From positions 248,001 to 312,000 of the forward strand of contig NZ_ONZG01000004.1 in the NCBI RefSeq assembly GCF_900302455.1: 64,000 bases of DNA, in the 5' to 3' direction. The notes below the pieces were generated by a model. The model saw nothing but the letters and a program-made list of their open reading frames with translations, was not told where the DNA came from and did no database searches. Below are positions 9,003-28,733 of the stretch, one piece after another; positions within the stretch are counted from its first letter, which is position 1; every line of letters starts with the position of its first letter. A program made the position numbers and the translations under genes. Source of the DNA: Falsiruegeria mediterranea M17 (GTDB lineage Bacteria > Pseudomonadota > Alphaproteobacteria > Rhodobacterales > Rhodobacteraceae).

Positions 9003-9034
9003 TTGCGCAATAAGCCCTTTATTTTGCGCAATAA
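9003..9034. promoter_or_regulatory. Twin TTGCGCAATAA sites, candidate ScfR operator
   Basis: Two identical 11-bp copies of TTGCGCAATAA (9003-9013 and 9024-9034) are 21 bp apart start to start, about two helical turns. Each holds the palindrome TTGCGCAA. They lie between the binding-protein gene and the divergent ScfR-like gene. Regulators of the RamB/PrpR/ScfR type are known to bind TTTGC...GCAAA-like sites, so these are candidate operators for both genes. Confidence 0.65.
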
Positions 9035-9136
9035 TTCTGTAAATTCATACACAGGAATGTGGCGCTTTGTGTAAATAACATTACGACGCACCGCAGAAAG
9101 CCGTTGATAAGGCAACATAATATCTTGGGGGCGAAC

Positions 9137-10435: not shown

Positions 10436-10521
10436 CAGTTCCGTGACGGCGGCGCTAAGTTGAACAAAGCCGCAGCGACGGGGGCAATCCCCCGAGCCTT
10501 TTTTGGGGAGGAAGGGCAAGC

Positions 10522-13946: not shown

Positions 13947-15113
13947 ATGGACCGACAAGGCAGGTCAGGGCTTATGCCACCAGAGGCGGACACAGATTCA
14001 GTAATTCAGCGCAAACTGGCAGTGGCGCGTGACGAAGGGCAGGGCGCTCCTCGGTCGATCCTGCGCGCAATGCGGTTGGGGCTGGCGCGCGCCGCAGCGG
14101 ACACGCTGGACTTGTCCATGACGGTGATTGGGGCAACGCAATGCAGGCGCTCGCAGGATGGGTTGCAGGATACGGTGCCGCAAGATCGCCTGTATGTCCT
14201 GTTGTCCGGACCAGATGGTTTGCTGGGCGGGGCCTGTTTCGACCGGGTCTGCGTGACCTCGGTCATACAGCAACAGACGATGGGCACGGTTTTTGCCGTT
14301 TCGGGCAACGAGCGCCCGTTCACCGGAACCGATGCGGCCATGATTGCCCCGCTTGTCGATGCGTTTTTACCCCGGGCAAAGGACCTGAGCGAAGCCCCTG
14401 TGGATCGCCTGTGTCTGGATGGGTACCAATTTGCGGCGCGGACGGATGATCGGCGCAACCTGATCCTTTCGATGGAATATGAAAGTTTCCGCCTGTTCGA
14501 CCTGACGGTCGAGATCGGCGGTGGCGTGGCACAAGGGCAGATCACCCTGATCCTGCCCGATCAACCCGAGCCCAAGGAGGCGGCCCCGGATGGTCTTGGC
14601 GAAATGTCGGGGCTGGAAAAGAGCTTTGGTGTCATGCGGGCCGAGCTCACGGCGGTCATCTCGCGCGTGCAACTGCCGCTTGCGGCCTTTGCGGGGATGC
14701 AGCCCGGGGATCTGCTGCCCTTGATCGGCGACAAACTGGACAAGACCGAGGTGCTGACGATCGAAGGTCAGCGAATTGCCGTTGCTCGGTTGGGGCAGTG
14801 CCGTGGCATGCGCGCCTTGCGCCTGAACGAACGCTTGCCGGAACTTGAGCCACCCAACCCGGATGCCGGGTTCTCCGAGCACGGGACACCGGACGCGACC
14901 GCTCTGACTTTGGTTGATCCAGACATCATCGAGCACACATCGAGTGTAGAGATTGCGGCCGATACATTGGACAGCGGTTCGGCTAGAGCTGTTCCGCCGG
15001 TCGCTGAAGTCGAACAGAACTTTGCCCATCTCAGCCCCGAGCAGGCCGTTGCCGAAATCTCGGAGCTTGCAGGTTTGCCTGCGGGATCAGACGAATTGGA
15101 TCCGGCCGGGTAA
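13947..15113 (+). CDS. FliM/FliN (SpoA)-like C-terminal domain protein
   Basis: A 388-residue protein. The ATG at 13947 has AGGGGA four bases upstream. About residues 237-295 match a SpoA/FliN-like surface-presentation domain (LPLAAFAGMQPGDLLPLIGDKLD...GMRALRLNERL). The N-terminal half (QRKLAVARDEGQGAPRSILRAMRLGLARAAADTLDLSMTV) is helical like the FliM middle region, and the acidic tail is unstructured. In flagellar motors this domain forms the C-ring. No other flagellar gene is nearby, so it may be an orphan or divergent motor component, as seen in other Rhodobacterales. It follows the histidine kinase by 52 bp and may be cotranscribed. Confidence 0.7.
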   Translation: MDRQGRSGLMPPEADTDSVIQRKLAVARDEGQGAPRSILRAMRLGLARAAADTLDLSMTVIGATQCRRSQDGLQDTVPQDRLYVLLSGPDGLLGGACFDRVCVTSVIQQQTMGTVFAVSGNERPFTGTDAAMIAPLVDAFLPRAKDLSEAPVDRLCLDGYQFAARTDDRRNLILSMEYESFRLFDLTVEIGGGVAQGQITLILPDQPEPKEAAPDGLGEMSGLEKSFGVMRAELTAVISRVQLPLAAFAGMQPGDLLPLIGDKLDKTEVLTIEGQRIAVARLGQCRGMRALRLNERLPELEPPNPDAGFSEHGTPDATALTLVDPDIIEHTSSVEIAADTLDSGSARAVPPVAEVEQNFAHLSPEQAVAEISELAGLPAGSDELDPAG

Positions 15114-15117
15114 AGCC

Positions 15118-15543
15118 TCAGCCCTTGCGCAGCTGCTCAAGCGTTGGACGTAACCCGTCAAGCTGGTAGCCCGCGGCCGAAGTTTTGGACAAGATTTCGT
15201 CCGGGGCCAGGTCCTGGCATTGGCCCAAGGCCCAAACCACGGAACAGCGTGTGCCGGACGCGCAATAGGCCAGTACCTTACCCGAACCGCATTCAGCCAT
15301 CTCGCGCTGACGGGCCACGTTGTCCTGAGACATGGTCTGGTGGGTCAGTTCCAGAACTTCGAATTCCATCCCGGCTGCACGCACGGCCTGTTCGATGGCA
15401 TCCGCCTGATGGCTTGGCGGCACTTCGGCATTCGGACGGTTACAGATGACTTTGGTATAGCCTGCCTCGGCAATGGCTGGGACGTCCTCAACCGAGATTT
15501 GCGGCGAGACGGAATAGCGGTCGGTGATCGGTCGAATATCCAT
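15118..15543 (-). CDS. TIGR01244-family sulfurtransferase / phosphatase-like protein
   Basis: A 141-residue protein of the DSP-like fold found at the N-terminus of beta-lactamase-like hydrolase (Blh) proteins and annotated TIGR01244 family sulfurtransferase. The start MDIRPITDRYSVSPQISVEDV and the motif VICNRPNAEVP are characteristic. The active-site loop YCASGTRCSVVWAL provides a Cys in a CxxGxR arrangement. It is the last gene of a leftward operon with two YeeE-type sulfur permeases and a persulfide dioxygenase-like enzyme, so it probably accepts or moves sulfane sulfur. The rightmost part of the frame is convergent with the FliM-like gene, with only 4 bp between them. Confidence 0.85.
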   Translation of the reverse strand: MDIRPITDRYSVSPQISVEDVPAIAEAGYTKVICNRPNAEVPPSHQADAIEQAVRAAGMEFEVLELTHQTMSQDNVARQREMAECGSGKVLAYCASGTRCSVVWALGQCQDLAPDEILSKTSAAGYQLDGLRPTLEQLRKG

Positions 15544-15552
15544 GGCTATTCC

Positions 15553-15984
15553 TTAGGTGGCAGCAGCGAGTCTGTCCAGTTGCGAGCCGAGTTTTGGTGC
15601 AAAACTCATACCGGCCAGCATCGAAAGCAGAAAGATCAGGCCGCCCGTGCCGCCAAACGTCAAAGAGGCCATCGCAGGGCCGGGGCAAAGGCCCGCGAGT
15701 CCCCAGCCCATGCCAAAAAGAACAGAGCCTGTGATCAGGCGATGATCCAATTCCGGGCGCGGCAAATCGGGAAAGGCCCCCCCGGTCAAAGGTGCGCCAC
15801 GTGTGGTCAGCTGCCAGGCCACAAGCATTGGCAGGATCGCGCCACCCATGACAAAGGCCAGTGTAGGATCCCATGCTCCAAACACATCAAGCCAGCCTTG
15901 GACCTTGGTTGTATCGGTCATGCCCGACAGCAAGAGACCAGCGCCGAAGAGAGACCCTGACAAAAGGGAAATCAGAATTCGCAT
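15553..15984 (-). CDS. YeeE/YedE (DUF6691) family membrane protein, second subunit
   Basis: A 143-residue membrane protein with about four helices. Its motif set (SGSLFGAGLLLSGMTDTTKVQGWLDVFGAWDPTLAFVMGG and ...GWGLAGLCPGPAMASL) is that of the PmpB/YeeE half-transporter family, whose members move thiosulfate or sulfane sulfur across the inner membrane. The conserved Cys in LAGLCPGPA is present. Its start overlaps the stop of the partner permease by one base (TGATG). With the neighbouring gene it makes a two-component version of a full YeeE channel. Confidence 0.88.
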   Translation of the reverse strand: MRILISLLSGSLFGAGLLLSGMTDTTKVQGWLDVFGAWDPTLAFVMGGAILPMLVAWQLTTRGAPLTGGAFPDLPRPELDHRLITGSVLFGMGWGLAGLCPGPAMASLTFGGTGGLIFLLSMLAGMSFAPKLGSQLDRLAAAT

Positions 15985-16418
15985 CAGATCACCCCCAGAA
16001 TGTGACGGAACAGAACCAGCGTTAGCCCGCCTGCCAGGATATAGAACACCGTCGCAACGATACCTCGCAACGAAAAGCGCGAAATGCCACAGACCCCGTG
16101 ACCCGAGGTGCAGCCATTGGCGATTCGGGTGCCCGCGCCCACCAGCAGGCCGGCGGCGATCACCGCAAACCAGTTTGAGGTCAGGTGCGTGTCCGCCTCA
16201 AGCCCCAGGATCTGGAGCATAAGCAGGGGTGTCGCAATCACACCAATCACAAAAGCGGCCCGTTCAGCGGCTGTGCCCCAGCCGGAACGGTCCACAAGGC
16301 CGCCCAGAATTCCACTCGCTCCCATGACACGGCCGTTGCCCAGCAACAGAACCGCACCGCCGGTACCGATCAGCAGCCCGCCGATCAGCCCCCATATCCA
16401 ATCCATTGGCATTGTCAT
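15984..16418 (-). CDS. YeeE/YedE family membrane protein, first subunit
   Basis: A 144-residue membrane protein with about four helices, of the PmpA/YeeE type. The motif GTRIANGCTSGHGVCGISRFSLR carries the two conserved Cys residues expected to ferry sulfur through the channel. It is paired with the overlapping downstream gene and follows the persulfide dioxygenase-like gene by 30 bp. Expected location is the inner membrane. Role by family: uptake of thiosulfate or export/import of sulfane sulfur; the direction here is not known. Confidence 0.9.
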   Translation of the reverse strand: MTMPMDWIWGLIGGLLIGTGGAVLLLGNGRVMGASGILGGLVDRSGWGTAAERAAFVIGVIATPLLMLQILGLEADTHLTSNWFAVIAAGLLVGAGTRIANGCTSGHGVCGISRFSLRGIVATVFYILAGGLTLVLFRHILGVI

Positions 16419-16448
16419 CTCCCTAGTGTTCGCGCGTTTCGTGATCGA

Positions 16449-17312
16449 TCAAAGTTTGTTGATCGGCACCTTGAGGAAGACGTCCCCCTGCTCATCTGGC
16501 TCGGGCATCCGACCGCCGCGCATATTAACTTGCAGCGACGGCAGGATCAGACGCGGCATCGCCAGCGTCGCATCGCGGGCGTCGCGCATTTCCACAAACT
16601 CTTCGATTGGTCGACCTTGACCGATGTGGATGTTCAGGGCCTTCTGCTCGCCCACCGTGGTTTCCCAGGCAAATTCATCGCGGCCCGGTGCCTTGTAGTC
16701 ATGACCCACAAAGATCCGCGTGTCGTCGGGCAATGTCAGGATCTTTTGGATCGACTGGTAGAGCGTTTCGGATGACCCGCCCGGGAAATCGCATCGCGCG
16801 GTGCCGAAGTCGGGCATGAACAGCGTATCACCGACAAATGCTGCATCCTCGATCACATAGGTCAGGCACGCGGGTGTGTGTCCGGGCGTTTCCAACACGT
16901 CGCCGCGCATCTGGCCGATGTGGAAACTGTCGCCTTGGGTAAACAGCTTGTCGAACTGGCTGCCGTCGCGCTGAAACTCGGTGCCTTCGTTGAACACTTT
17001 GCCGAATGTGTCCTGCACGACCGTGATGTTGCGACTGATGCCGATCTTACCGCCCAGCTGTTCCTGCAAATAGGGCGCGGCAGACAGGTGGTCGGCGTGC
17101 ACATGGCTTTCCAGCAACCATTCCGTCTTGAGGTCATTGTCACGCACATAGCGAATGATTTCATCCGCCGACGACGTGTCCGTCCGCCCTGCGGCCTGAT
17201 CATAGTCGAGCACGCTGTCGATGATGGCACAGGCCCGCCCTTCGGGCTCGCGCACCAGGTAGGACACGGTGAATGTCGCCTGGTCGAAAAAGGCCTTCAC
17301 GAATGGTGTCAT
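16449..17312 (-). CDS. MBL-fold persulfide dioxygenase-like protein (Blh/ETHE1 type)
   Basis: A 287-residue metallo-beta-lactamase-fold enzyme. The start at 17312 (MTPFVKAFFDQATFTVSYLV) has GGGGAGAG upstream; the open frame extends 19 codons further. Metal ligands are in HVHADH (residues 70-75), the ETPGHTPACLTYV segment, GDTLFMPDFG and VGHDYKAPGRDEFAWETTVGEQK. This is the ETHE1/Blh persulfide dioxygenase pattern, a mono-iron enzyme that oxidises glutathione persulfide to sulfite. It leads an operon with two YeeE-type permeases and a sulfurtransferase, which fits sulfide/persulfide detoxification. An AT-rich patch near 17335-17350 could hold a BigR-like operator, but no ArsR-family repressor gene is adjacent. 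Confidence 0.87.
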   Translation of the reverse strand: MTPFVKAFFDQATFTVSYLVREPEGRACAIIDSVLDYDQAAGRTDTSSADEIIRYVRDNDLKTEWLLESHVHADHLSAAPYLQEQLGGKIGISRNITVVQDTFGKVFNEGTEFQRDGSQFDKLFTQGDSFHIGQMRGDVLETPGHTPACLTYVIEDAAFVGDTLFMPDFGTARCDFPGGSSETLYQSIQKILTLPDDTRIFVGHDYKAPGRDEFAWETTVGEQKALNIHIGQGRPIEEFVEMRDARDATLAMPRLILPSLQVNMRGGRMPEPDEQGDVFLKVPINKL

Positions 17313-17576
17313 TGATCTCTCCCCGCGATTTCTACAGTTATCATATATTGGTTGTGGAATGTGTTTCAATAGGGTTTTGCCGCATCCTTGCGCAGCTTCA
17401 CTTGAGGTGGGTCAAGGTGGCTGGATTGAGGGGATGTTAGCATTGCCACATAAGCGGGCCAAATCACCTGGGCGTGCTGTGGAATTGGGCAAACGGGCAT
17501 GCATGGTCAAAATTTGGCCGGTTTTGCATTTCTGTTACCCGAATCTGGTCTATTCAACTTATAGGGGAGGACGAAA

Positions 17577-17792
17577 ATGTCAGATCAAGAACTTCTGCAA
17601 CAAGCCGAAACGATAGAGGCGCGTTTGGACGGGGCCAATCAATCCTTGCGGCTGGAACTGCAACCCAAGCTGAGCAAGGTGATCGCAAACCTGCGCGCCA
17701 ATGGGACGCATGTCCCGGCCCGGCTCAAGCAGTTGGATGCGGCGCTGTGTGACGAAGCGATCGAGGCCCGTTTCGACAACATGCCGATCTAA
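17577..17792 (+). CDS. Conserved small helical protein
   Basis: A 71-residue protein (MSDQELLQQAETIEARLDG...) preceded by a strong ribosome-binding site, AGGGGAGG, six bases from the ATG. It is helical and charged with no Cys-rich, membrane or signal segment, and ends in RFDNMPI. A promoter-like AT-rich stretch lies upstream (TTGCAT ... TATTCAACTTATA region). I do not recognise a function; it looks like a Rhodobacterales-conserved cytosolic protein. It is convergent with the next gene. Confidence 0.65.
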   Translation: MSDQELLQQAETIEARLDGANQSLRLELQPKLSKVIANLRANGTHVPARLKQLDAALCDEAIEARFDNMPI

Positions 17793-17800
17793 GGGGCGCG

Positions 17801-18019
17801 TCAGCCCAGCGAAATGCCCATGATCACCATCATGAGGCCCAGAACCGACAGAAACAGCGAGCCCAGGTTCCATGGCAGCACGCTTTGAACAGCGGCGCGC
17901 AATTCATCATCGCTCAGGCCCGCTTTGCGCGCCTTGTTCACGCGCAGAATGCACCAGATCAGGCCGACAAGCCCGGCCAGCGAAAGAGCTGCGCCGCCCC
18001 AGACAATCAATTCGAACAT
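17801..18019 (-). CDS. Small two-helix membrane protein
   Basis: A 72-residue protein starting at 18019 (MFELIVWGGAALSLAGLVGLIWCILRV), with a second span NLGSLFLSVLGLMMVIMGISLG at the C-terminus. Between them lies a basic-to-acidic loop (NKARKAGLSDDELRAAVQSVLP). The open frame continues upstream to 18157, but that extension is basic and atypical. Topology suggests both termini on the same side of the inner membrane. Function unknown. It is convergent with the 71-residue gene, 8 bp away. Confidence 0.7.
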   Translation of the reverse strand: MFELIVWGGAALSLAGLVGLIWCILRVNKARKAGLSDDELRAAVQSVLPWNLGSLFLSVLGLMMVIMGISLG

Positions 18020-18175
18020 GGTGCACCTATCGTTGTCAGTTTCGGCGTTGCGGTTAGCGGATTGGCGCCTTTTGCGCAACCCAGACCGCGACAGGGGCAA
18101 TGTGTGCTTGCGGCAGGGCCGGGGGCGATGTATCCCGCGTGACGCCTCAAATTGCACATCGACGGAGAAGTGAAC

Positions 18176-18436
18176 ATGGAAGAGTCCCAGGCCGAAGCCA
18201 ATTATCGCGTGACCGCAGGAGAATTGCGCCAGTTCGTCGAGCGGATGGAGCGGTTGGAGGCCGAGAAAAAGGACATTGCCGAGCAGCAGAAAGAGGTGAT
18301 GGCCGAAGCCAAGGCTCGTGGCTACGACACCAAGGTGATGCGCAAGGTCATCGCGCTGCGCAAGCGTGACAAGGACGACATCGCCGAAGAAGAAGCGGTG
18401 CTGGAGATGTACAAAGAAGCGCTGGGCATGACCTGA
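18176..18436 (+). CDS. gapR: GapR/DUF2312 nucleoid-associated protein
   Basis: An 86-residue DUF2312 protein. The ATG at 18176 has GGAGAAG upstream; a TTG 24 bases earlier is less likely. The coiled-coil start ELRQFVERMERLEAEKKDIAEQQKEVMAEAK and the basic second half ARGYDTKVMRKVIALRKRDKDDIAEEE are characteristic. In Caulobacter, GapR binds AT-rich, overtwisted DNA ahead of forks and polymerases. Many Alphaproteobacteria carry one or more copies; whether this is the main or a secondary copy cannot be told. Confidence 0.85.
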   Translation: MEESQAEANYRVTAGELRQFVERMERLEAEKKDIAEQQKEVMAEAKARGYDTKVMRKVIALRKRDKDDIAEEEAVLEMYKEALGMT

Positions 18437-18980
18437 ATACGGGTCATCACCTGTTCAAGCGGATTGCGGCAGGACAAACGCGCACCGAGTCTACGCGCTT
18501 GGGCTCTGCTTGGAAATAGATGGTTGGTTGGGGCGCGGTCAGTGACAGCGATGCCCCGGCTGACCACGCAACCGCCCGATCTCGCACCACAGGTTTGTCC
18601 AAATGAGTGGCCGTCGCCCCCCAACGGCCACTTGAAAGAACCAAGTTCCCAAAGAATGACAGTCGGCTGGCACGTTCCGTTTGTGAACGGGTTGCCACAT
18701 TCCAACCTTCGTTTCTGGCTGGCTTGATTAATCTGAGGCGTTGAACGCTTGGGCTTTTTCTTCTCAACGGCCAGGATCGACACAGCGTTGATGCGATGCG
18801 GATCGCCAAGGATCTTGTCTGGTCCTGACTGGATCTGGTTGCCAAGAGCCAGCGAATAGCGCGCTCAACACCAGCAATTTGACAAAAACCGAAATGTAGC
18901 CTGTTCCAAGCTGTAGGACTTGCTTGGCCTGCGGGCGGCGTCATCAGAAAACCGACAACCATCTCTCTTAAAATACAACA
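18437..18980. other. Gene-poor region with hairpin; possible degraded sequence
   Basis: No gene is supported here. One long minus-strand frame (18447-19001) exists, but its composition (rich in Ser, Arg and Leu, no domain) does not look like a folded protein. A 9-bp hairpin, AGTGGCCGT (18606-18614) with ACGGCCACT (18624-18632), is present. The stretch reads like an interspersed non-coding or decayed sequence at the left edge of the unusual 19-25 kb island. Confidence 0.4.
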
Positions 18981-19014
18981 CCGCCCCCAATTCAAATTCA
19001 AGAATTGGGGGCGG
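18981..19014 (-). terminator. Rho-independent terminator of the acidic repeat gene
   Basis: A perfect 13-bp stem, CCGCCCCCAATTC (18981-18993) with GAATTGGGGGCGG (19002-19014), lies 39 bp past the stop of the acidic repeat gene. On the minus strand it is followed by a T-rich run (GTGTTGTATTTTAAG). Confidence 0.75.
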
Positions 19015-19052
19015 CGTTAAATCATATTGGGACGAGGTCGTCCAGGAAACGA

Positions 19053-19673
19053 TCAGAGCGCTTCGTCACCCTCGTCGTCTTCGTCGCCTTCGTCGTTTTC
19101 GTCTTCTTCGTCGCCTTCGTCACCGTCGTCAGGGTCGCCTTCGTTGCCTTCGTTGCCTTCGTCGTTTTCGTCGGCTTCGTCACCTTCGTCGTCTTCGTTG
19201 TCTTCGTCGTTTTCGTTGTTTTCGTCGGCTTCGTTGTTTTCGTCACCTTCGTTCTCTTCGTCACCTTCGTCGTCTTCGTCGCCTTCGTCGCCTTCGTCGC
19301 CTTCGTTGTCTTCGTCGGCTTCGTCGTCTTCGTCGCCTTCGTTGTCTTCGTCGTCTACGCCGCCTTCGTCACCTTCGTTGCCTTCGTTGCCTTCGTTGTC
19401 TTCATCTTCTTCATCGTCCTCGTCGGACTCGTTGCCTTCGTTACCTTCGTCGTCCTCGTCGCCCTCGTTGTTTTCGTCGAATTCGTCGCCCTCGTCGTCC
19501 TCGTCGTTTTCGTTGCCTTCGTTGCCTTCATCATCCTCGTTGCCTTCATCCCCATCGACAAAGTCATTGGAGAAGCTGACAGGTGCCATGAGGGCTTGCG
19601 ATTGAAGCAAGTCATCGATCAGGGTTTGCAGGTCTTCGGCGGTCGGGATGGCGGATGTGTTAATGGCAGTCAT
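19053..19673 (-). CDS. Extremely acidic triplet-repeat protein, [x]-[D/N]-E
   Basis: A 206-residue protein starting at 19673 (MTAINTSAIPTAEDLQTLID) with GGAG nine bases upstream. Residues 1-40 form a normal amphipathic segment (DLQTLIDDLLQSQALMAPVSFSNDF). From residue 41 to about 181 the protein is 47 consecutive triplets, nearly all x-[D or N]-E with x mostly Gly, Asp or Asn. A shifted run of DEx triplets follows to the C-terminus. The repeat has no Lys, Arg, Cys or aromatic residue except one Phe. There is no Sec signal. It may bind calcium or be an export substrate of the nearby ABC/MFP genes; Asp/Asn side chains could be targets of the adjacent 2-oxoglutarate oxygenase (inference). A terminator follows the gene. 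Confidence 0.75.
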   Translation of the reverse strand: MTAINTSAIPTAEDLQTLIDDLLQSQALMAPVSFSNDFVDGDEGNEDDEGNEGNENDEDDEGDEFDENNEGDEDDEGNEGNESDEDDEEDEDNEGNEGNEGDEGGVDDEDNEGDEDDEADEDNEGDEGDEGDEDDEGDEENEGDENNEADENNENDEDNEDDEGDEADENDEGNEGNEGDPDDGDEGDEEDENDEGDEDDEGDEAL

Positions 19674-20098
19674 TTGGTATCTCCAAGTCAACTTGTCTCG
19701 AGCGCACACACAGGTGCGGACAAAGGGATTGCGTTGTTCACGGGAGGCCGACCAACCGGCAGAGCACGCCGAAAATGTGCGCGCATTGCAGTATCTGAAA
19801 ATGTGCGACCGTAATGGTCCCGTGGTTTTTTGTAGAGGATCAAAGTGATGCCATTTGGCGCCACGATCCGAAGCTGGAAAAAATATGGTTATCATGGTCC
19901 GCACTGACTGCCACTCTGTCAACAAGGAATCCGGTGATTTGACGGTAACACAGAGCCGACGCCAACCTTAGGGCGCTTCCATCGATCCTGAATGCAGCCA
20001 AGGGTTCTATGTGGGTGCTATCAATGGAGGAAGTTCGGGATGCGACAGTATACATTTCACCGGTGGATACGGTGCCGGACCCGCCGTATGTTGGAAGC
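19674..20098. other. Upstream region of the acidic repeat gene
   Basis: 425 bases with no supported gene, lying between the metalloprotease stop and the acidic repeat gene start. AT-rich patches such as GAAAAAATATGGTTATCATGG (19869-19889 region) may hold the promoter for the acidic gene. The open frame continuing upstream of the acidic gene to 19925 codes for a Cys/Arg-rich sequence unlike the rest and is not considered coding. Confidence 0.45.
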
Positions 20099-20788
20099 TC
20101 AAGTGGTCAGGGCCGATAGGGGGACCTCACCAAGAAACTGAGCAGCAAGCGTGTTTTGTTGGCGTGTGGCCAAGAGGTTCAATGCCAGGCGCCGGGCAAT
20201 TGGATAATTCCAGTCATAGTCATACTGGACATCGTTGTCTGCCAAACTCTCTTTTAACTTGGCGGAAAGCGGTCCGAGATCGCGATAGATGCTTGAACGG
20301 ATCAGATCCATCTGCGGGCGGGTACGGTGCCTTGTTTCCCAGGCCGCGCTTTGGGCGATCAGGCTCTCGCGAACATACGCGCAAAGCTCGCGCAGAACCG
20401 GCAACATGCTGTGCATTTTCGATGCCGTTATCTGGATTGCATGGCCATACTCATGTGCGAGCCGCAGAATATCCGCTGTTGTCCCGTCGCAGGGGCAAGA
20501 AACGTAGATGCGGCCGCCACCGATGTCGTGAATGGTAAAGGGCCTGAGGAATTTTGCCTTGTCCGGCGCGAACTCCGAAACGGTCGTAGCGCGCACTTTC
20601 TCTATGGCGGGAGCGAGTTCGGGGAGGTCCGCAGCGAGCACCCGAGCGATCATGTCCCAAAGCTCGGCGCCCGTGAAAGAGATCGCAGTTGGCTGCATGG
20701 CGCGGATGGCGGGGCCGGGACATTGATCGGCCAAGAGCTTGACGCAACCGTCTGCGGTCAGACCGTGAAGTTCCAGCCAGTCGGCCAT
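20099..20788 (-). CDS. Compact zinc metalloprotease (gluzincin, HEYGH)
   Basis: About 229 residues from the ATG at 20788 (MADWLELHGL); the frame is open further upstream and the true start is uncertain because no clear ribosome-binding site is seen. Residues 106-120 read ADILRLAHEYGHAIQ, an HExxH zinc site of the HE[Y/L]GHA type found in M3 oligoendopeptidases. Downstream Glu134 or Glu141 (RELCAYVRES) is placed to be the third ligand. The protein is far shorter than M3 enzymes (about 600), so it is a minimal or divergent catalytic domain. No signal peptide. Next to the acidic repeat protein and ahead of the export genes, it could cleave a leader; this is inference. Confidence 0.65.
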   Translation of the reverse strand: MADWLELHGLTADGCVKLLADQCPGPAIRAMQPTAISFTGAELWDMIARVLAADLPELAPAIEKVRATTVSEFAPDKAKFLRPFTIHDIGGGRIYVSCPCDGTTADILRLAHEYGHAIQITASKMHSMLPVLRELCAYVRESLIAQSAAWETRHRTRPQMDLIRSSIYRDLGPLSAKLKESLADNDVQYDYDWNYPIARRLALNLLATRQQNTLAAQFLGEVPLSALTT

Positions 20789-21236
20789 CGTTGACTGACC
20801 AGTTGCGGTCAAAGGCTTGAGGCACAGCCCCTTGGCGGGCTGGTTTGCATTTGTAGAGGACTGCAGGGCGGCTGGGGGTGTTGGATGCGCGCGATCTGGT
20901 TTGGAACAGCTGCGAGCGTTGCTTCGGGATCGGCTGGCCGCAAGCGCACCAGGTGATTCAAGAAGGCAGGGGTCATCTTGCCAATCATCTTTGAATACGT
21001 GTCACGTGCCATATCAACAACCTGAAGTGAAACTGGTGCTTTGCCAAGAGGGATACAGGCTGTCTATCATGTGCTTTCAGCGCTGTTTGAGGTGTCCAAT
21101 CCTATGCGCGAGACTTGAAGAGACACTCGGATGCATGCATTATTCTTGGTATATGGTATGTTCCATGTGCCGCGAGGGGCACAAGATGGTTTTTTTTTGA
21201 AGTCAAACTAATGCTATTTGAACGGACTGTAGTGAT
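20789..21236. other. Low-GC intergenic region between metalloprotease and oxygenase
   Basis: 448 bases, clearly lower in GC than the flanks towards its right end (21101-21236). A 67-codon minus-strand frame (20809-21012, MARDTYSKMIGKMTPAFLN...) has no good ribosome-binding site. The metalloprotease frame also stays open into this region, so part may encode a longer N-terminus. Promoters for the divergent protease and oxygenase genes probably lie here. A poly-T run of nine is at about 21191-21199. Confidence 0.4.
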
Positions 21237-21882
21237 ATGAAGGACGAAGACTTTAGTTTCGTACGGCGCGCGTATTTTCCGACAATGATCTTTCAGATCG
21301 ACTTGCCGAACCCGGAAAAGCTGAACGAGACGCTACTCAACAATATCCACGGCGAGCGCGAACGCGACCAAAAGTGGATTAGCCGGTCGAACATTCCGGC
21401 ATTGGGGGGGGCATAGCCACAACAATCTGCACAAATCCGAGGATTATGCAGAACTGGTGGGCTTGATTAACAATGCCACGGACAAGCTTTCGGAAAATCT
21501 GGGTTATGCCGAAACTCACAATCTGCGGATTGGCACGATGTGGTCAATCATCAACCCGCCGCGCAGCGCAAACAAGGCGCACGTACATCCCGGGTGCTTG
21601 TGGAGTGGTGTGTATTATATTCAGGCACCTGAGAAATGCGGCAACATCGAATTTGTCGAGCCGCGCACGGTTCACTTGATGAATCAGGCCAAGTATCAGC
21701 CCAACAAGAAACGCCCCAAGGAGTGTTGGACCAAGGTTCGTTTCAAACCGGTGCCAGGTCGCATGATCATATTCCCCAGTTGGCTGTACCATTCCGTCGA
21801 CACGAACATGACCGAAGAAAGCGGCGAGGCGGCCAACCGGATCATCATCAGCTTCAACCTAAATCAGGTCAAAGCAAAGTAA
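21237..21882 (+). pseudogene. 2-oxoglutarate/Fe(II) oxygenase, TIGR02466-like, with frameshift
   Basis: Two frames together give a full-length enzyme of about 214 residues. The first part starts at 21237 (MKDEDFSFVRRAYFPTMIFQIDLP) and runs to a TAG at 21414. The second frame continues from 21412 (HSHNNLHKSEDYAELVGLINN) to 21882. The break is in a run of eight G (21404-21411); family members would read GGWHSH here, consistent with loss of two bases or gain of one. The second part holds AHVHPGCLWSGVYYIQAPEKCGNIEFVEPR and PGRMIIFPSWLYHSV...NRIIISFN, the metal- and 2OG-binding pattern of TIGR02466 proteins, relatives of prolyl/aspartyl hydroxylases. It could be a true pseudogene, transcriptional slippage at G8, or a base-call error. 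Confidence 0.75.
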
Positions 21883-22052
21883 CCAGGGCTGGCAAACCAA
21901 GGTGTGTTCACATGTGCGAGGCCCATATGGCGATCTCGTCATTTTGAATTGTTTCGCAGATGTGGCACACTGTCAGCACGGGCTGGGAGTGACACGATGA
22001 AATCTGCTAAGGCCCTTGAAGGCGCAGCACGCAAGGCTGTCAGACGTGGTGG

Positions 22053-23807
22053 ATGGTTCTCAGCTCCGCGTTCGTGATCAGTTTTGCCGTGAACGTGCTC
22101 CGGCTGGCCGGGCCAATGTTCATGCTTTTGATCTATGATCGCGTTCTGACATCCAGGTCGGTCGAGACGTTGGTGGCGCTGTTTGGTCTGGTTCTGGTGC
22201 TTCTGGCGGCGCTCGGGACGCTCGACTACGCCCGCAAACGCATGCTGGCCAGATTTGGGGCACAGTTTCAGGAACAGATGGAAGACACCCTGCTGGAACA
22301 TTCCAGCCGCCACCAGCTGTTCCGGCATAACCGGGCCAAACCGAGCCTTGGTCTGGACGAAGTCGATGGACTGCGATCTTTCTTTCACTCTGGCACCCTG
22401 ATCTCCATTTTTGATTTCATCTGGACACCGATGTTTCTGGCGGTTGTCTTTGTGCTGCATCCGACGTTGGGTTGGGTGTGTGTGTCGGGCATCGGTGTGA
22501 TCATTTTGCTGGTATTGGTCCAACAGGCTTTTGTTGGCGGCCGCAGAGAACGTGCCCAGGCAGCGTCGGGGCAGATTACCGGGCTCAAGAATATTCTGAT
22601 CGCGTCGCGGGCCACAGTCCGGTCGCAGAATATGGGACCGGGGTTCAAGAACCGCTGGAAATCGGCTCGGGATACGTCGCGTGATAACGCCATCCAGCTC
22701 AAGGATTGGACCGCCTGGTTTACCAGCATGTCCAAGATTGTGGTGATGGTCATCCGCTATTCCGTGCTGGCGACGGGCGCATACCTGACCTTGCAAGGTG
22801 AATTGACCGTTGGCGCCATGGTGGCGGCGACCTTCATGGTGACGCGCGTTCTGGGCCCTGTGGACAGGTTCTTCGGCAATCTTCCGAATATGTTCCAAGC
22901 ACGGGATCAATGGCGACGGCTGCAACAGATCCTGCTCAAGCGGGCTGCGGAGATGTCTGACAACTACGCCGAGCAGGCGGCCTCACCCAAGCGGTTGATA
23001 CTGGACAATGTTTCCGTCAGATCGCCGCTTACCGGAAACCTGATCCTGCGATCCGTATCACTTTCCGCAAGTGCCGGAGAGTTCATCGAGATCACCGGCG
23101 CATCGAGCCAGGGCAAGACAGTGCTGGCCGAGACGATATTGGGAATGTGGTCCCCTTCGGCGGGCACAATACTGATTGATGGGCGGCATGCATCAAGACT
23201 GACAGATGACGAAGCTGGAAAGCTTCTAGGATACGTGCCGGAAGCCCCGACATTCGTGGCCGGAACGCTGGAAGAAAACATTGGCGGCCTCGATCCGGAT
23301 CCCAACCCTGATCAGGTCGGGCTGGCTGCCCGCAGGGCACGCATGCACGCCGCCATTTGCGCGTTGCCTGACGGATACAACACGATGATCGATGCACAGG
23401 CCAGTTGCCTGTCAACGTTTGAGCGCAATCAGCTTGCTCTGGCCCGGGCCTTCTATCACTCGCCGCGCATCCTTATTATCGACAGCCTGGATGCCGAGAT
23501 GCTGATCCGCATCCCAAGGAAACTACAGGCCACGTTCTCGACCTTGATGAAGCGTGACAATGTCACAATCATCCTCCTGTCCCGCCAATCGCTGGATCTG
23601 CCGTATACCAACCGTCGATATAACCTTGAGGATGGACGTTTGACCGAGGTGAAGTCGGTCTCGGTGAAGAGCCAGTCGCAGAATGTGAAGGTCTCGTCGA
23701 TGGGCTCGGCCGCTGTTGCCGGGGATCAAAACAAGAAAGCCAAGATCTCGGTGGTCAGCGACAAGAGTGCACCCGAGGTGCGAACGGACAAGACGGTGCA
23801 GCGGTGA
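22053..23807 (+). CDS. Type I secretion ABC permease/ATPase with degenerate catalytic motifs
   Basis: A 584-residue PrtD/LapB-like exporter without a C39 peptidase domain. Membrane part (about 1-300): LRLAGPMFMLLIYDRVLTSRSVETLVALFGL is typical of type I secretion ABCs. The ATPase keeps Walker A GASSQGKT (about 349-356). However, the Q-loop reads PEAP, the signature is LSTFERNQ (about 453) instead of LSGGQRQR, Walker B ends IIDS (no Glu, about 474), and the H-loop is LSRQ (no His). It is therefore probably unable to hydrolyse ATP normally. A better ribosome-binding site (GGGAG) and ATG lie at 21997 in another frame (MKSAKALEGAARKAVRRGG), which matches the usual N-terminus; a one-base shift near 22050 separates them. 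Confidence 0.82.
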   Translation: MVLSSAFVISFAVNVLRLAGPMFMLLIYDRVLTSRSVETLVALFGLVLVLLAALGTLDYARKRMLARFGAQFQEQMEDTLLEHSSRHQLFRHNRAKPSLGLDEVDGLRSFFHSGTLISIFDFIWTPMFLAVVFVLHPTLGWVCVSGIGVIILLVLVQQAFVGGRRERAQAASGQITGLKNILIASRATVRSQNMGPGFKNRWKSARDTSRDNAIQLKDWTAWFTSMSKIVVMVIRYSVLATGAYLTLQGELTVGAMVAATFMVTRVLGPVDRFFGNLPNMFQARDQWRRLQQILLKRAAEMSDNYAEQAASPKRLILDNVSVRSPLTGNLILRSVSLSASAGEFIEITGASSQGKTVLAETILGMWSPSAGTILIDGRHASRLTDDEAGKLLGYVPEAPTFVAGTLEENIGGLDPDPNPDQVGLAARRARMHAAICALPDGYNTMIDAQASCLSTFERNQLALARAFYHSPRILIIDSLDAEMLIRIPRKLQATFSTLMKRDNVTIILLSRQSLDLPYTNRRYNLEDGRLTEVKSVSVKSQSQNVKVSSMGSAAVAGDQNKKAKISVVSDKSAPEVRTDKTVQR

Positions 23808-23811
23808 GAAC

Positions 23812-25125
23812 ATGAAGGGTACAGATCGAAATCGAAGCACTTGGAGTACGGGACGCCCGTTGTTGATTGCGGTTATGTCTTTCGTCGTACTTGTTCTCGG
23901 GGTCATGGTCTGGTCGACAAGGGTCGACATTACCGGTGCGGTAGTCGGATCCGGCGTGGTCGAGGTCTCAACATCGATGACGGCAGTTCAACATCCGATC
24001 GGCGGGGTTGTCGAGGCGATCGAAGCCCAAAATGGCGATCAGGTGCAGGCGGGTGATCTATTGGTCAAACTGGACAGCCGACAGATCGAATCCGATCTCA
24101 ATGTGACAGAAATCGAACTGTTCGAGGTCCTGGCAAGCATAGCCCGACTTGAGGCCATTCTTGACGGCAATCGCGAATTGACGCCTCCGGCATTGCTGAC
24201 AGATGAACTGGCGGAGCGGCCTGAGGTTCAAATGATGTTGGACCGGCAACAAAAGCAGCTGACGGCGTATTTTCAAGCCCTTGATGCGGGGATCGAACTT
24301 TTGGACGAGCAGATCGTGCAGGTGCAGTCGGAAATTGCAGGGGTCGAAGCACAGCTTGCCGCCAAGATTGACGAACAGGAGTTTCTGAACCGCGAAATTC
24401 AGAATGCTCAGGAACTGGCTGAACGGAAACTGATAAAGCTGTCCGAGCTGTTTCGACTGCAGCGCCTGGATGTTTCCGTGCGCGGAGATGTCGGGCGATT
24501 TACCGCTCAGATTGCCGGACTGAAGGGGAAGGTATCCGAGCTCCATCTGAAGCGCTTGGCGATTATCCCGACGGCCTATGAAAAAGCTGAAGAAGCTCTC
24601 AGCAAGCTGCGCCCACTGCGGACACGATTCATCGAAAAACGGTTCAGCCTGATGGCCGACCTTTCCAGGCTCGAGATCCGCGCGCCAATCAATGGAAAAA
24701 TCCACGATTCTCAGGTTCAGGGGCGTCGTTCCGTTGTGGTTGCGGCAAAGCCGCTGATGATGATCGTGCCTGACGATGACCCTGTCAGGATCGGGGTCAG
24801 GGTCATCGCCGCCGATATTGACCAGATTTATGTCGGTCAGCCCGCATCACTAAAGTTCAAATCGTTCAATCGCCGCGAGACGCCTGTCATTCTGGGCGAA
24901 GTTGGCAGCATATCTGCCGATGTAATTGCGGATCCGCTTACGAAGAAACACTACTATGAAGTCAAGGTTCGTTTGTTGGACGACGAGGTGCAAAAACTGG
25001 GCGACAAAGAGTTGCTGCCCGGCATGCCAGTCGAAGCTTACATGTCCACCGAAAGCCGCACGCCGCTCAATTACGTGCTTCGTCCTATTCAAAATTATTT
25101 CGACAGGGCCTTCCGCGACACTTGA
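23812..25125 (+). CDS. HlyD-family membrane fusion protein (type I secretion)
   Basis: A 437-residue periplasmic adaptor. The ATG at 23812 lies 4 bp after the ABC gene. Residues about 17-38 (LLIAVMSFVVLVLGVMVWST) form the single inner-membrane anchor. A lipoyl/barrel-sandwich half follows (VVEAIEAQNGDQVQAGDLLVKLD), then a long coiled-coil hairpin (about 95-285, many Glu/Gln/Leu) and the second half motif LEIRAPINGKIHDSQVQGRR. The C-terminus has the conserved LLPGMPVEAYMSTESRTPLNYVLRPI. It would link the ABC to a TolC-type outer-membrane channel, which is not in the window. Confidence 0.93.
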   Translation: MKGTDRNRSTWSTGRPLLIAVMSFVVLVLGVMVWSTRVDITGAVVGSGVVEVSTSMTAVQHPIGGVVEAIEAQNGDQVQAGDLLVKLDSRQIESDLNVTEIELFEVLASIARLEAILDGNRELTPPALLTDELAERPEVQMMLDRQQKQLTAYFQALDAGIELLDEQIVQVQSEIAGVEAQLAAKIDEQEFLNREIQNAQELAERKLIKLSELFRLQRLDVSVRGDVGRFTAQIAGLKGKVSELHLKRLAIIPTAYEKAEEALSKLRPLRTRFIEKRFSLMADLSRLEIRAPINGKIHDSQVQGRRSVVVAAKPLMMIVPDDDPVRIGVRVIAADIDQIYVGQPASLKFKSFNRRETPVILGEVGSISADVIADPLTKKHYYEVKVRLLDDEVQKLGDKELLPGMPVEAYMSTESRTPLNYVLRPIQNYFDRAFRDT

Positions 25126-25195
25126 GCGTTCACGGCTATCTATCTCCATTCTGTTAGCTGTTCCGCGACAGGGGGCGTGGGCAATTGATCCGCAA

Positions 25196-26284
25196 CTAGC
25201 GCGTGGCGACATCGACACGTGCCACAGCCACGGCCTTGATGACGGCGTGCACATGCGCGCCGGGTTTCAGTGACATGGCTTCGGCTGAGCGGCGCGTGAT
25301 GCGTGCAAGCAGAAAGTCATCCCCGCTTTTGATTTGAAGGATCATGCCCGGACCGGTGCCTTGCCGGATCGAAGTGATCTCGCCCGGCAAAATGTTCAAA
25401 GCCGAGATATCTTTGGGGTAGTTTCGCGAGATCATGATGTCATGTGCAAGGATGCGCACGCGGGTTGAACTGCCTTTAGGCTGGTCGATCTTTGGCAAAA
25501 ACAGGCGTCCGCCCGACACACTAAGTTCCGTCAACCCATCCGGGTGATGGGTCTGAACGGTCGCTGGCAGAATCGAACCGGCCTCGCGCAGGCCAAATTG
25601 CCGTGCCGTTGCCGGGTCAGACAGAACCTGTTCTGCCGGGCCCGCCCGGGTCACCTTACCGTTGTCAAGCATCACCACGGATGTGGCCAGACGAGCCACC
25701 TCGGCGACCGAATGACTGACGTAGAGTGTCGGGATATCCGTGTGCTCGCGCAGCTGTTCCAGAAACGGCAGGATCTCTTCTTTTCGTGCGCTGTCCAGCG
25801 CGGCCAGGGGTTCGTCCATCAACAGCATTCGGGGACGTGACAAAAGGGCCCGGCCTATGGCTACGCGCTGCTTTTCGCCGCCTGACAACAGTCCGGGATT
25901 GCGGTCGAGCAGGGGGGCGATACCGAGAAGTGCGACAACTTCGTCAAAGCCGGGACCTTGGGCCTCGGGGTGAGCGTAGCGCGCTCCATAGAGCAGGTTA
26001 CGGCGAACCGAGAGATGCGGAAACAGGCGGCCATCCTGAAAAACATAGCCCAGTCGGCGTTTGTGTGGGGGGATGTCGATCTTCATTGCGGTGTCAAAGA
26101 TCGGCTCGCCATCCAAAATGATGCGCCCCTGATCGGGACGCAAAAGCCCGGAGACAGCGTTGATGATGCTGGTCTTGCCTGTTCCAGACGCGCCGAACAG
26201 GGCGGTGATGCCACGGGGGGCCTCGAAACTCACGTCCAGCGTGAAATCCGCCAGTTGATGCTGGATCGCGACACACAAGCTCAT
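25196..26284 (-). CDS. modC: Molybdate ABC transporter ATP-binding protein ModC
   Basis: A 362-residue ATPase. Walker A GASGTGKTS, signature LSGGEKQRVAIGRALL and Walker B MLLMDEPLAALD are intact. The C-terminal third is a MOP/TOBE domain (ALNILPGEITSIRQGTGPGMILQIKSGDDFLLARITRRSAE) that binds molybdate and may tune transport. It overlaps modB by four bases (TCAT on the plus strand). It is the last gene of modABC, transcribed leftward and convergent with the island's HlyD gene. No modE gene is seen nearby. Confidence 0.95.
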   Translation of the reverse strand: MSLCVAIQHQLADFTLDVSFEAPRGITALFGASGTGKTSIINAVSGLLRPDQGRIILDGEPIFDTAMKIDIPPHKRRLGYVFQDGRLFPHLSVRRNLLYGARYAHPEAQGPGFDEVVALLGIAPLLDRNPGLLSGGEKQRVAIGRALLSRPRMLLMDEPLAALDSARKEEILPFLEQLREHTDIPTLYVSHSVAEVARLATSVVMLDNGKVTRAGPAEQVLSDPATARQFGLREAGSILPATVQTHHPDGLTELSVSGGRLFLPKIDQPKGSSTRVRILAHDIMISRNYPKDISALNILPGEITSIRQGTGPGMILQIKSGDDFLLARITRRSAEAMSLKPGAHVHAVIKAVAVARVDVATR

Positions 26285-26976
26285 ACGCCGGACACCCGTT
26301 TCCTGGCTCGGCGTGCCAGCAGTTCTGACGCCACAAGCGCCCCCATGGCGACGATGATCGACACGATAACCAACCGAAGGGCGGGCCCCTCGCCACCGGG
26401 AACCTGCAAGAACGTGTAAATCGCTGACGGCAACGTCTGTGTCTGTCCGGGAATGTTCGAGACAAATGTGATGGTTGCGCCGAACTCTCCCATCGCTTTG
26501 GCAAAAGCCAGCACGACGCCGGTGATCACACCAGGCAAAATAAGGGGCAGGGTGACGGTGGTAAAAACCGCAAAGCGCGAGGCGCCCAAGGTCGAGGCCG
26601 CCTGTTCAAGCTTGGGATCCACGGCCTCGATCGCCAATCTGATGGCCCGCACCATCAATGGAAAGGCCATGATCGCAGCTGCAAGAACGGCGCCAGTCCA
26701 CCGAAAAGCAAGAACCAAGCCAAAGGTCTCTTCCAACCATGCACCAGCCAACCCACGCCGCCCGAAGGTCAGCAACAGCAAATAGCCGGTGACAACCGGT
26801 GGAAGGATCAACGGCAGATGGACCAAACCGTTAAGGAGTTGATGGCCGCGAAACTGCCATCGCGCAAGGGCATAGGCCGTAAGGATGCCAAGAGGCAGAC
26901 TGAGTAGAACGGCCCAAACCGACACCTTCAGCGACAGTATGACGGCCTGCCATTCCTCTTGGCCAAACCAGTCCAT
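26281..26976 (-). CDS. modB: Molybdate ABC transporter permease ModB
   Basis: A 231-residue inner-membrane permease with about five to six helices. The EAA motif region LEQAASTLGASRFAVFTTVTLPLILPGVITGVVLAFAKAMGEFGATITF is diagnostic for ModB, with GEFGATI a hallmark. It overlaps modC by four bases and shares one base with the modA stop. It forms the pore of the molybdate importer. Confidence 0.95.
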   Translation of the reverse strand: MDWFGQEEWQAVILSLKVSVWAVLLSLPLGILTAYALARWQFRGHQLLNGLVHLPLILPPVVTGYLLLLTFGRRGLAGAWLEETFGLVLAFRWTGAVLAAAIMAFPLMVRAIRLAIEAVDPKLEQAASTLGASRFAVFTTVTLPLILPGVITGVVLAFAKAMGEFGATITFVSNIPGQTQTLPSAIYTFLQVPGGEGPALRLVIVSIIVAMGALVASELLARRARKRVSGV

Positions 26977-27761
26977 TATGGCGCATCCTCGGCCAGGCCA
27001 AACCCATGTGCTTGAAAGACGGAATCAGCTTGTTGTGAGCTTAGATGATCCAGAAACGCGCGTGCTTCGGACGTGTCCCCTTCGCGCATCAGGGCCACGG
27101 GGTAGACAATTGGGGTATGCGATTCTTGCGGAAAAAGACCTACGAGCCTTACCCAGTCGCTGGCTGCAGCATCCGTGACATAGACAACACCCATGGGGGC
27201 CTCTCCGATGCCAACCAGACGCAGCGCAGCCGTCACGTTGTCGGTCTGCGCCAATCGGGTTTGCACCTCGGCCCACAGTCCCAAATGCTCCAGCGCTTGT
27301 CTGCCATAAATCCCGGCAGGCACTGCCCGCACCAAGGCGATCGCCAATCGGCCATCCCCCAAGGCCTCTGAAAGTGGGGCGCCGGGTTCCAAGGCAAGGG
27401 ACACAGGGTTGTCCACGGAAGAAATCAAAGCCAGCCGATTGGTTATCAGATTATGGCGGCTGTCTTCTGCTATGAGACCATCGGCCTCTAGGGCGTCCAT
27501 CCAGGCGGTATTGGCCGACAGAAACAACTGCGCCGGTGCGCCATGTTGTATTTGACGCGCCAGAGCCGAGCTGCCGGCATAAGACAGATTAATCTGCTGT
27601 CCGCTCTCGGCCTCATAGGTTTTGGCGATCTCGTCCAGAGCGGGTTTGAGGCTGGCGGCCGCAAAGACGGTGACGGTCTCGGCACTTGCGTGATCGGGTA
27701 CCCCAACGAAAGCAGCACCGGCCAGTATGAGGCCCAGTATGTTCCGTCGTGGGGCGGTCAT
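26976..27761 (-). CDS. modA: Molybdate-binding periplasmic protein ModA
   Basis: A 262-residue binding protein. The chosen start is the ATG at 27761 (MTAPRRNILGLILAGAAFVGVPDHASAETVTVFAAASLKPAL); AAGGAG lies eleven bases upstream, and the open frame extends 32 codons further. Residues 1-27 form a Sec signal ending in ASA. Mature motifs VTVFAAASLKPALDEIA, LSYAGSSALARQI and GAPAQLFLSAN are standard for ModA oxyanion binding. First gene of modABC. The supplied molybdenum would feed molybdopterin enzymes. Confidence 0.94.
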   Translation of the reverse strand: MTAPRRNILGLILAGAAFVGVPDHASAETVTVFAAASLKPALDEIAKTYEAESGQQINLSYAGSSALARQIQHGAPAQLFLSANTAWMDALEADGLIAEDSRHNLITNRLALISSVDNPVSLALEPGAPLSEALGDGRLAIALVRAVPAGIYGRQALEHLGLWAEVQTRLAQTDNVTAALRLVGIGEAPMGVVYVTDAAASDWVRLVGLFPQESHTPIVYPVALMREGDTSEARAFLDHLSSQQADSVFQAHGFGLAEDAP

Positions 27762-27857
27762 CGTCCGTTCTGCTCCTTTGCCGGGTTGCCACTTCAAATA
27801 TGGCAAGCGTCTCCAAATGGATTCAAGGGCAGGGCGCAACACAACGAGACCCGGCAA

Positions 27858-28733
27858 TCAGGGGGCAATCAGGGTTACGCCGGGGATGCGCTGAATGGCA
27901 AAGACATCCTCGTCATAAATGTCGGTCAACTCGTCCACCAACTCAGCCGTCCAACCTGGCAGGTCCAGTTCTTCTTCGACCTCGTCGTCGATGGCGTATT
28001 TGTCCAGAAACGCCGCTATGACACGACGCTTTTGCATCTCGGTCAGTTCTGGGTGCTGGTGCAGATAGGTGCGAAAGCGGGTCATGCCTTCGTTGCTCAT
28101 GATGTCCGACAGCAGAGAAAAGCCGCCGGTCATTTTGGTTCCATGTTCAAGGCCCGCGAACTCTCGCATGATCTGGCCCCAAAGCAACGGCGTGTCCTCG
28201 TTGCACCAGACGGTGATCGGCACATCCGGGGCGGCAGTGCGCATCCGCTGAAACACCTCCGACCAACGAAGATTGAGTGGATTGATGGAAGCCGTAATCT
28301 CTCGGATCCGCGACGGAGCAGCTGTACTCAGAGCTGCTGGAACAAATGTCGCCGGGTTGCGGATTGCCATGTAGATTTCAAGTTGGTCGAACTTGAACAG
28401 TTCGCGCAATTGTCGAACCCGAACATCGGCCAGTGGGTACAACGTGTCCCCGTCCAGCACAAAGCGCTGCGAGCCGAAGAAATGGGCGTTCGACAACAAA
28501 AGTCGGTCTGCCACCTCGTCATCCAGAATGGCATCGATCAAGACATCGCGTGCATCTTCGGATGGGGCGACCGTTTCCATGGCGGCAAAGGCGTCTTTGA
28601 ACAGGCTGCGGTACTTTCCAGGACCTGGAACGGCTATGCCGCGCTTTCCAAAGGCTTCCTTGTTGTACAACATGCATTTCAGCAGGCGTTCATCATCCGT
28701 TGCATGTGCGCCGGTGTGAAAGATGATCTGCAT
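27858..28733 (-). CDS. Sulfotransferase-like hypothetical protein
   Basis: About 291 residues from the ATG at 28733 (MQIIFHTGAHATDDERLLKCML); another in-frame start lies nine codons upstream, and neither has a good ribosome-binding site. The N-terminal strand-loop FHTGAHATDDERL resembles the phosphosulfate (P-loop-like) start of bacterial sulfotransferase-fold proteins common in Rhodobacterales. The middle includes IRNPATFVPAALS and VWCNEDTPLLWGQIM. An acidic C-terminal part (YAIDDEVEEELDLPGW) is present. No signal peptide. Enzyme activity is not proven; the gene stands alone downstream of an empty stretch and upstream of modABC. Confidence 0.6.
   Translation of the reverse strand: MQIIFHTGAHATDDERLLKCMLYNKEAFGKRGIAVPGPGKYRSLFKDAFAAMETVAPSEDARDVLIDAILDDEVADRLLLSNAHFFGSQRFVLDGDTLYPLADVRVRQLRELFKFDQLEIYMAIRNPATFVPAALSTAAPSRIREITASINPLNLRWSEVFQRMRTAAPDVPITVWCNEDTPLLWGQIMREFAGLEHGTKMTGGFSLLSDIMSNEGMTRFRTYLHQHPELTEMQKRRVIAAFLDKYAIDDEVEEELDLPGWTAELVDELTDIYDEDVFAIQRIPGVTLIAP

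Follow-up and report, generated by a model that had tools for sequence, protein, structure and literature searches.

A genomic island of Falsiruegeria mediterranea encoding a candidate pathway for modification and export of a polyanionic [x]-[D/N]-E repeat protein

The DNA analyzed here, referred to as the window, is a 64,000-nucleotide stretch of contig NZ_ONZG01000004.1 of Falsiruegeria mediterranea M17 (positions 248,001 to 312,000 of the forward strand; genome G000, contig C48 in our labeling). It carries an island with genes for a protein made largely of [x]-[D/N]-E triplets (xDE repeats), a minimal HExxH protein with the motif HEYGH, a 2-oxoglutarate (2OG)-Fe(II) oxygenase, an ATP-binding cassette (ABC) protein, and a HlyD-family membrane fusion protein. 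All five genes had been claimed in an original prediction made from the DNA sequence alone, and all five are present. Comparable gene blocks are carried by some marine Roseobacter-group bacteria. We consider it probable that the island encodes a dedicated pathway for the synthesis, probable hydroxylation at Asp and Asn, and export of a giant polyanionic repeat protein. That the repeat protein, the oxygenase, and the exporter belong to one pathway is very likely; that Asp and Asn are the residues hydroxylated is evenly balanced.

The repeat protein of the window has a leader of ∼40 amino acids (aa) and 49 in-register [x][D/N]E triplets. It contains no Lys or Arg and has a pI of 4.05 and a net charge of −112. 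Tandem Repeats Finder (TRF) described the gene as 53.7 copies of a 9-bp period. The nearly pure triplets and the ∼40-residue leader of the original prediction were borne out, but its 290-aa open reading frame (ORF) started too early: leader alignment with the protein of Tropicibacter sp. R16_0 (Roseobacteraceae), the closest named relative found, places the start at 19673 and gives a length of 206 aa. The leader, with a ratio of non-synonymous to synonymous substitution rates (dN/dS) of 0.39 over 45 codons between the window and R16_0, resembles those of the proteins from R16_0, G025, and G038 and that of a 79-aa ORF elsewhere in G000. This ORF (contig C17, ∼197807-198046; 9807-10046 of locus L058) has a leader like that of the type A loci described below, a short stretch of xDE, and a GGAGG preceding an internal TTG; it is a possible second substrate in the genome of the window.

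Sixteen repeat proteins (from the window, R16_0, and eight genomes) contributed 3,912 in-register triplets. The first position was Gly in 65%, Asp in 12%, and Asn in 12% of these, and the middle position was Asp in 2,207 and Asn in 1,705; since triplets were counted conditional on [D/N]E, the figures bear on first-position composition and on the ratio of D to N, and not on the purity of the arrays. In-register triplets made up 44-83% of each protein. The third-position Glu was encoded by GAA 2,279 times and by GAG 1,633 times, in a ratio that varied among genomes. The use of both codons in varying ratio indicates that the repeat is maintained at the protein level.

Two known repeat classes were considered and rejected for this protein. 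The repeats-in-toxin (RTX) consensus is the nonapeptide GGxGxDxxx, and neither such nonapeptides nor any Pfam match was seen in the window repeat protein. Like the bacterial collagen-like proteins SclB and Lcl it has triplet periodicity, but matches to collagen models were below cut-off, Gly occupies only ∼65% of first positions, and with Asp/Asn-Glu elsewhere a collagen helix is not expected. Searches of the open-licence literature with the repeat strings gave no work on this protein, as judged by title among the matches listed.

The oxygenase belongs to a family with solved structures. The C-terminal piece of the window protein alone matched TIGR02466 with 171.2 bits (E 2.3e-50; cut-off 62.5) and PF13759 with E 2.6e-23, and the homolog in G106 scored 189.8 bits against TIGR02466. 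As had been predicted, the gene is frameshifted: the frame is lost near 21405 relative to the intact protein of R16_0, to which both pieces are 95-96% identical. In the alignment the motifs HxHP...H and R.I.SFN are common to the oxygenases of the repeat loci and to 2rg4 and 3bvc, members of the same sequence family deposited as uncharacterized. Unlike other TIGR02466/PF13759 copies, however, these oxygenases form a distinct subfamily tied to xDE repeats, which we defined by an identity of at least 45% to the R16_0 protein; in the 59 genomes examined other TIGR02466 copies reached at most 42%. The widespread copies are ∼23-35% identical to the subfamily, with a further group at up to 42%. No activity or substrate for TIGR02466/PF13759 oxygenases was found among the open-licence papers listed. 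A single-sequence AlphaFold model of the R16_0 oxygenase was too poor to use (predicted local distance difference test (pLDDT) score 38.9).

The oxygenase subfamily and the repeat protein occur together. Each was sought in 394 genomes of the family, almost one per genus and drawn alike for both searches. The repeat protein matched in 14 genomes; three of these matches were other simple repeats (EGH, TEP, and GNQ) and were dropped, leaving 11 genomes with true xDE sequence. The subfamily was present in 19 of the 394 genomes: all 11 with true repeats and 8 of the 383 others. The Fisher p value for this association is ∼1e-16 (3e-14 with all 14 repeat matches counted), and is only a guide because genomes belonging to the same family are not independent. 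Two of the 11 genomes were included on less pure proteins: that of G102 (308 aa) has 26 [D/N]E pairs, and the two of G326 have 63 (753 aa) and 65 (862 aa). The distinct G102 protein, with DEG/NEG runs, is encoded 80 bp from a subfamily oxygenase; no ABC or HlyD gene was found in the 11.9-kb stretch there, which fits neither of the two architectures described below. Near the subfamily oxygenase of G171 lies the gene for a protein of 604 aa with NEGNEGNE runs. In a phylum-wide draw, 1 of 398 genomes matched, that of the window itself, and the genomes listed (21 of 398) were all of the same family. This co-occurrence supports the proposal that the repeat protein is a substrate on which the oxygenase acts.

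In the architecture that we call type A, genes for the repeat protein, oxygenase, ABC protein, and HlyD protein lie together. It was found in the window, R16_0 (locus L006), G025, G038, and G283, with a variant in G326; since loci were grouped by this gene content, finding it in all six is in part a matter of definition. All but G283 also have an HExxH relative of the HEYGH protein. The four families proposed to co-occur are neighbors in these six loci (the HExxH protein in five), and the opposite outcome, homologs that never neighbor one another, was not seen. R16_0 has all five genes; its oxygenase (215 aa) is intact, and its repeat protein is 1,005 aa long with 279 in-register triplets. The recurrence of the gene set and the repeat in other genera shows that the locus is not due to chance.

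The island was gained as a unit (Table 1). In G073, of the same genus, the sequences matching window positions 15012-18430 and 25198-28709 are separated by 22 bp, and 18431-25197 is absent by blastn. This empty site supports gain by transfer, which had been proposed from low G+C content (GC) near 21.1-21.2 kb; the GC minimum (0.480) indeed lies at 21000-21499, and the GC of the island is 0.551, whereas the flanks of 10 kb have 0.606 and 0.601. The insert of R16_0 occupies the same site. G038 is empty there (79 bp), and its own copy sits on another contig.

Table 1. Features of the island (positions in the window)
Feature	Position	Strand	Remarks
Island	18431..25197	n/a	6.77 kb; in window and Tropicibacter sp. 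R16_0; 22 bp instead in same-genus G073
xDE-repeat protein, 206 aa	19053..19673	minus	leader ∼19554-19673 (∼40 aa), then [x][D/N]E triplets
Minimal M3-like HExxH (HEYGH) protein, 237 aa	20099..20812	minus	TTG start aligns with R16_0 ATG; profile match
TIGR02466-family 2OG-Fe(II) oxygenase	21237..21882	plus	pieces ∼21237-21413 and 21406-21879; frame lost at G-run near 21405
PrtD-like ABC permease/ATPase, degenerate ATPase motifs	21997..23807	plus	frame lost near start, open from 22053
HlyD-family membrane fusion protein, 437 aa	23812..25125	plus	TIGR01843 297.3 bits

The ABC protein (ORF from 22053) matched the PrtD model TIGR01842 with 355 bits (E 6.6e-106), below the cut-off of 510.15, and the predicted HlyD partner exceeded the TIGR01843 cut-off of 208.65. 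Canonical ABC ATPases have a Walker A motif, an LSGGQ motif, a Walker B Glu, and an H-loop His; a protein without these residues should hydrolyze ATP poorly, if at all. The window protein departs from this set, reading GASSQGKT, LSTFE, IIDSLD, and SRQ. The predicted degeneracy is therefore real, and it extends to R16_0, G025, and G038, which share with the window G[AT]SSQGKT, LS[TN]FE, a Walker B motif lacking Glu, and Arg for the H-loop His. The motifs of G283 are intermediate, and those of G326 are canonical. Between the window and R16_0 the dN/dS is 0.043 for the ABC protein, 0.026 for the HlyD protein, and 0.031-0.039 for three neighboring genes. The degenerate ABC protein is thus under strong purifying selection and is maintained by it. 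As in type I secretion of the PrtD/HlyD type, the genes for an ABC and a membrane fusion protein adjoin that of the repeat protein. Unlike in type I secretion, the repeat protein has no RTX nonapeptides and has an N-terminal leader-like segment, and the ABC protein of the window branch lacks LSGGQ, the Walker B Glu, and the H-loop His. A plasmid search for ABC relatives gave 66 records, all below 60% identity; among the matches listed, the annotated ones were type I permeases.

A second architecture, type B, was found in G005, G106, G108, G128, and G255. Its gene order is an Rce1-like protein, a radical S-adenosylmethionine (SAM)/SPASM protein, the repeat protein, a HlyD-like protein, a C39 peptidase, and a 410-aa protein, followed on the opposite strand by the oxygenase and by an HExxH protein whose start looks signal-like by eye. 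The radical SAM gene adjoins the repeat gene in G005, G106, and G128. In G255 the oxygenase, the repeat genes, and the maturase operon lie apart, and the radical SAM gene is not next to the repeat gene; the repeat gene of the G108 operon is short or broken, and the HExxH gene of G005 is on another contig. The oxygenase tree has one clade of type A (support 100/98) and one of type B (97/99), each with array-less members (G380 in the first; G119, G220, and G215 in the second). Relatives of the type B HExxH protein also occur in the type A loci of G025 and G038; it was matched in 13 of the 19 subfamily genomes versus 1 of 40 others, which were hand-chosen. A homolog also lies on the contig of the window (C48, 201733-202467), ∼46 kb before the window start.

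The type B repeat proteins range from ∼600 aa upward to 2,463 aa. A GG[MA]P leader is present in 10 of 12, one of G005 having GGMAADP, and a Cys-rich tail with 3 or 4 Cys in all 11 aligned; the G108 protein is cut by a contig end, and a second one of G108 was left out of the alignment. Of the four repeat proteins of G005, which range from 855 to 2,463 aa, a single one is encoded within the operon; one type B operon may therefore serve several substrates. The radical SAM/SPASM proteins are closest to TIGR04463, for which no mention was found in the open-licence literature. Among 28 genomes, genes with 459.7-486.2 bits were present in exactly the five type B genomes, and the other 23 all scored below 80. 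Cys-31, His-105, and Asp-121 of the C39 peptidase, which we take to be its catalytic residues, are invariant in four sequences from genomes that also have Gly-Gly leaders. Type B thus resembles TIGR04463 radical SAM/SPASM and C39 pathways for ribosomally synthesized and post-translationally modified peptides (RiPPs) in its maturase homolog, Gly-Gly leader, Cys-rich tail, and HlyD-like protein, and, in G005, G106, and G128, in a maturase gene beside that of a precursor with leader and core. It differs in that the TIGR04463 scores are below the cut-off of 525, the precursors are ∼600-2,460 aa long, and neither the C39 protein nor the 410-aa protein matched an ABC ATPase domain in Pfam.

The window HEYGH protein had no Pfam match. 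A profile of six homologs nevertheless matched the oligoendopeptidase F structures 3ahm (E 3.2e-4) and 2h1j, and His-120, Glu-121, His-124, Glu-142, and Glu-149 are invariant in the six sequences. The minimal HEYGH protease that had been proposed is thus likeliest to be a minimal M3-type domain on profile similarity, although it scored 12.3 bits against TIGR02290 (cut-off 561.7). An AlphaFold model from two sequences was too poor to use (pLDDT 50.5). Homologs were found in R16_0, G025, and G038. The G326 relative has HEIAH as its motif, and its HExxH M3-like domain is joined in one protein to a HlyC (RTX acyltransferase) domain; the gene (8008-9570 of locus L046) lies between those of two proteins with NEG/DEG runs. 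In G063, a 401-aa protein (9502-10707 of locus L039) has an end that is HlyC-like by eye and no Pfam match. Neither HEYGH nor C39 relatives were found in the plasmid searches. In 16 subfamily genomes the HEYGH profile gave one weak match each, in 14 of them within an open frame of 608-807 aa that presumably encodes an M3 peptidase; the match in G326 was strong, but the G326 protein is itself in the profile.

Several observations weigh against a single dedicated pathway. The window has lost the frames of the oxygenase and the ABC protein relative to R16_0, and its ABC protein lacks residues that ATP hydrolysis requires. The HEYGH protein is under weaker constraint than its neighbors (dN/dS 0.26 between the window and R16_0) and matched in only 5 of 248 genomes (G000, G025, G038, G063, and G219); the spurious G219 match, in what looks by eye like an FAD-binding dehydrogenase subunit, was dropped. 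G283 and the type B genomes gave only weak matches to it, in longer ORFs. Eight of the 19 subfamily genomes have no true array. Three of these keep other type B genes: those of G119 and G220 are at contig edges, and the operon of G215 is broken. The other five (G380, G067, G312, G317, and G171) have no other type B genes, and G171 has only short NEG runs; no array was found in the stretches examined of G067, G312, G317, and G380; the contig of G380 is just 10 kb long. The single oxygenase relative found in the plasmid searches, in Pseudooceanicola algae (44% identity), had no array nearby. Two array-less loci gave further observations. In G215 (locus L095) the HlyD-like gene is in three ORFs and the C39 gene is a fragment, with the oxygenase and HExxH genes open, an apparent stage of loss. 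In G067 (contig C56, loci L093 and L103) the oxygenase adjoins a protein of more than 3,000 aa, a protein with an M50-like HEFGH region, a HlyD-like protein, and a SecA-like protein, all as read by eye, and no xDE runs were seen there.

The lost frames, together with an array of 206 rather than 1,005 aa, would also be expected if the window copy were a decaying remnant whose function has been lost. We regard this as somewhat unlikely. Assemblies can collapse tandem arrays, and an AMP-binding gene of adenylation type (by eye) at 30909-32533 on the plus strand of the window is likewise split by a frame change, near 31970, into two overlapping ORFs, which suggests indel errors in the assembly and makes assembly or sequencing error as likely as decay. 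Moreover, the dN/dS of the ABC protein, the HlyD protein, and the oxygenase piece (0.042) is as low as in the neighboring genes. That the genes are neighbors only through shared travel, with the oxygenase serving a housekeeping substrate, would fit the presence of TIGR02466 members in 266 of the 394 genomes and of array-less subfamily members. Such an explanation is very improbable, given the low identity of the widespread copies to the subfamily and the recurrence of the xDE linkage with different partners at different sites.

What the oxygenase may do to the array is a separate matter. Asp and Asn share the CH2 attacked by Asp/Asn hydroxylases, and the two alternate at the middle position in 16 of 16 proteins, as expected of a target of such an enzyme; a role in metal binding or turns would give the same alternation. 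An alternative that we judge unlikely is that the array leaves through the ABC/HlyD pair as an exopolymer that binds calcium or forms a gel, and that the oxygenase modifies another residue (Glu, Gly) or only a few sites, hydroxylation being minor. The Gly of the first position and the Glu of the third would suit this, as would the absence, among the papers listed, of an activity for the family. HEXXH 2OG-dependent proteins that hydroxylate Asp, His, or Gln runs in RiPPs have been reported (PMC12636437), and on that precedent the HEYGH protein could be a second, HExxH-type α-ketoglutarate oxygenase acting on the array and not a protease. Its similarity to M3 oligoendopeptidase F and the weak matches within presumed peptidases make this distinctly improbable, and the NCBIfam matches up to E 1 included no model for oxygenases of this kind, in a library that may lack one.

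The gene set, its conservation and co-occurrence, its arrival as an island, and purifying selection are shown by the data above. On the reading that we prefer, a dedicated modification and export pathway, we infer hydroxylation, leader cleavage, and export, each of which the original prediction had also proposed. The leader would direct the chain to the oxygenase, which would modify the array, most likely by β-hydroxylation of the middle-position Asp or Asn in many triplets; candidate triplets number 279 in R16_0 and 668 in one G005 protein, in chains with ∼110 to 610 net negative charges. The ABC/HlyD pair would then export the modified chain, and the HEYGH protein might remove the leader or otherwise process the substrate. 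In type B, comparable jobs may be done by the C39 peptidase, cleaving after Gly-Gly, and by the radical SAM/SPASM protein acting on the Cys-rich tail. Such a product, a hydroxylated polyanion, would reside on the cell surface or in sea water and could bind calcium or iron. A more speculative idea, to which we attach little weight, is that the ABC protein of the window branch no longer hydrolyzes ATP and that the membrane potential, which drives negative charge outward, moves a polyanion with hundreds of β-hydroxy-Asp/Asn residues out of the cell, which would make this an electrophoretic protein exporter.

Animal collagen, also a triplet repeat, is hydroxylated by 2OG enzymes. No description of the present gene system was found in the open-licence literature. 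The xDE triplet provides a candidate substrate motif for TIGR02466, a widespread family for which that literature offered no substrate. The loci also point to gene-encoded polyanions, reaching 2,463 residues, as a class of secreted biopolymer of which no description was found there either. Finally, the conservation of an exporter-like ABC protein without the usual ATPase residues would make transport of such a chain across a membrane directly testable.

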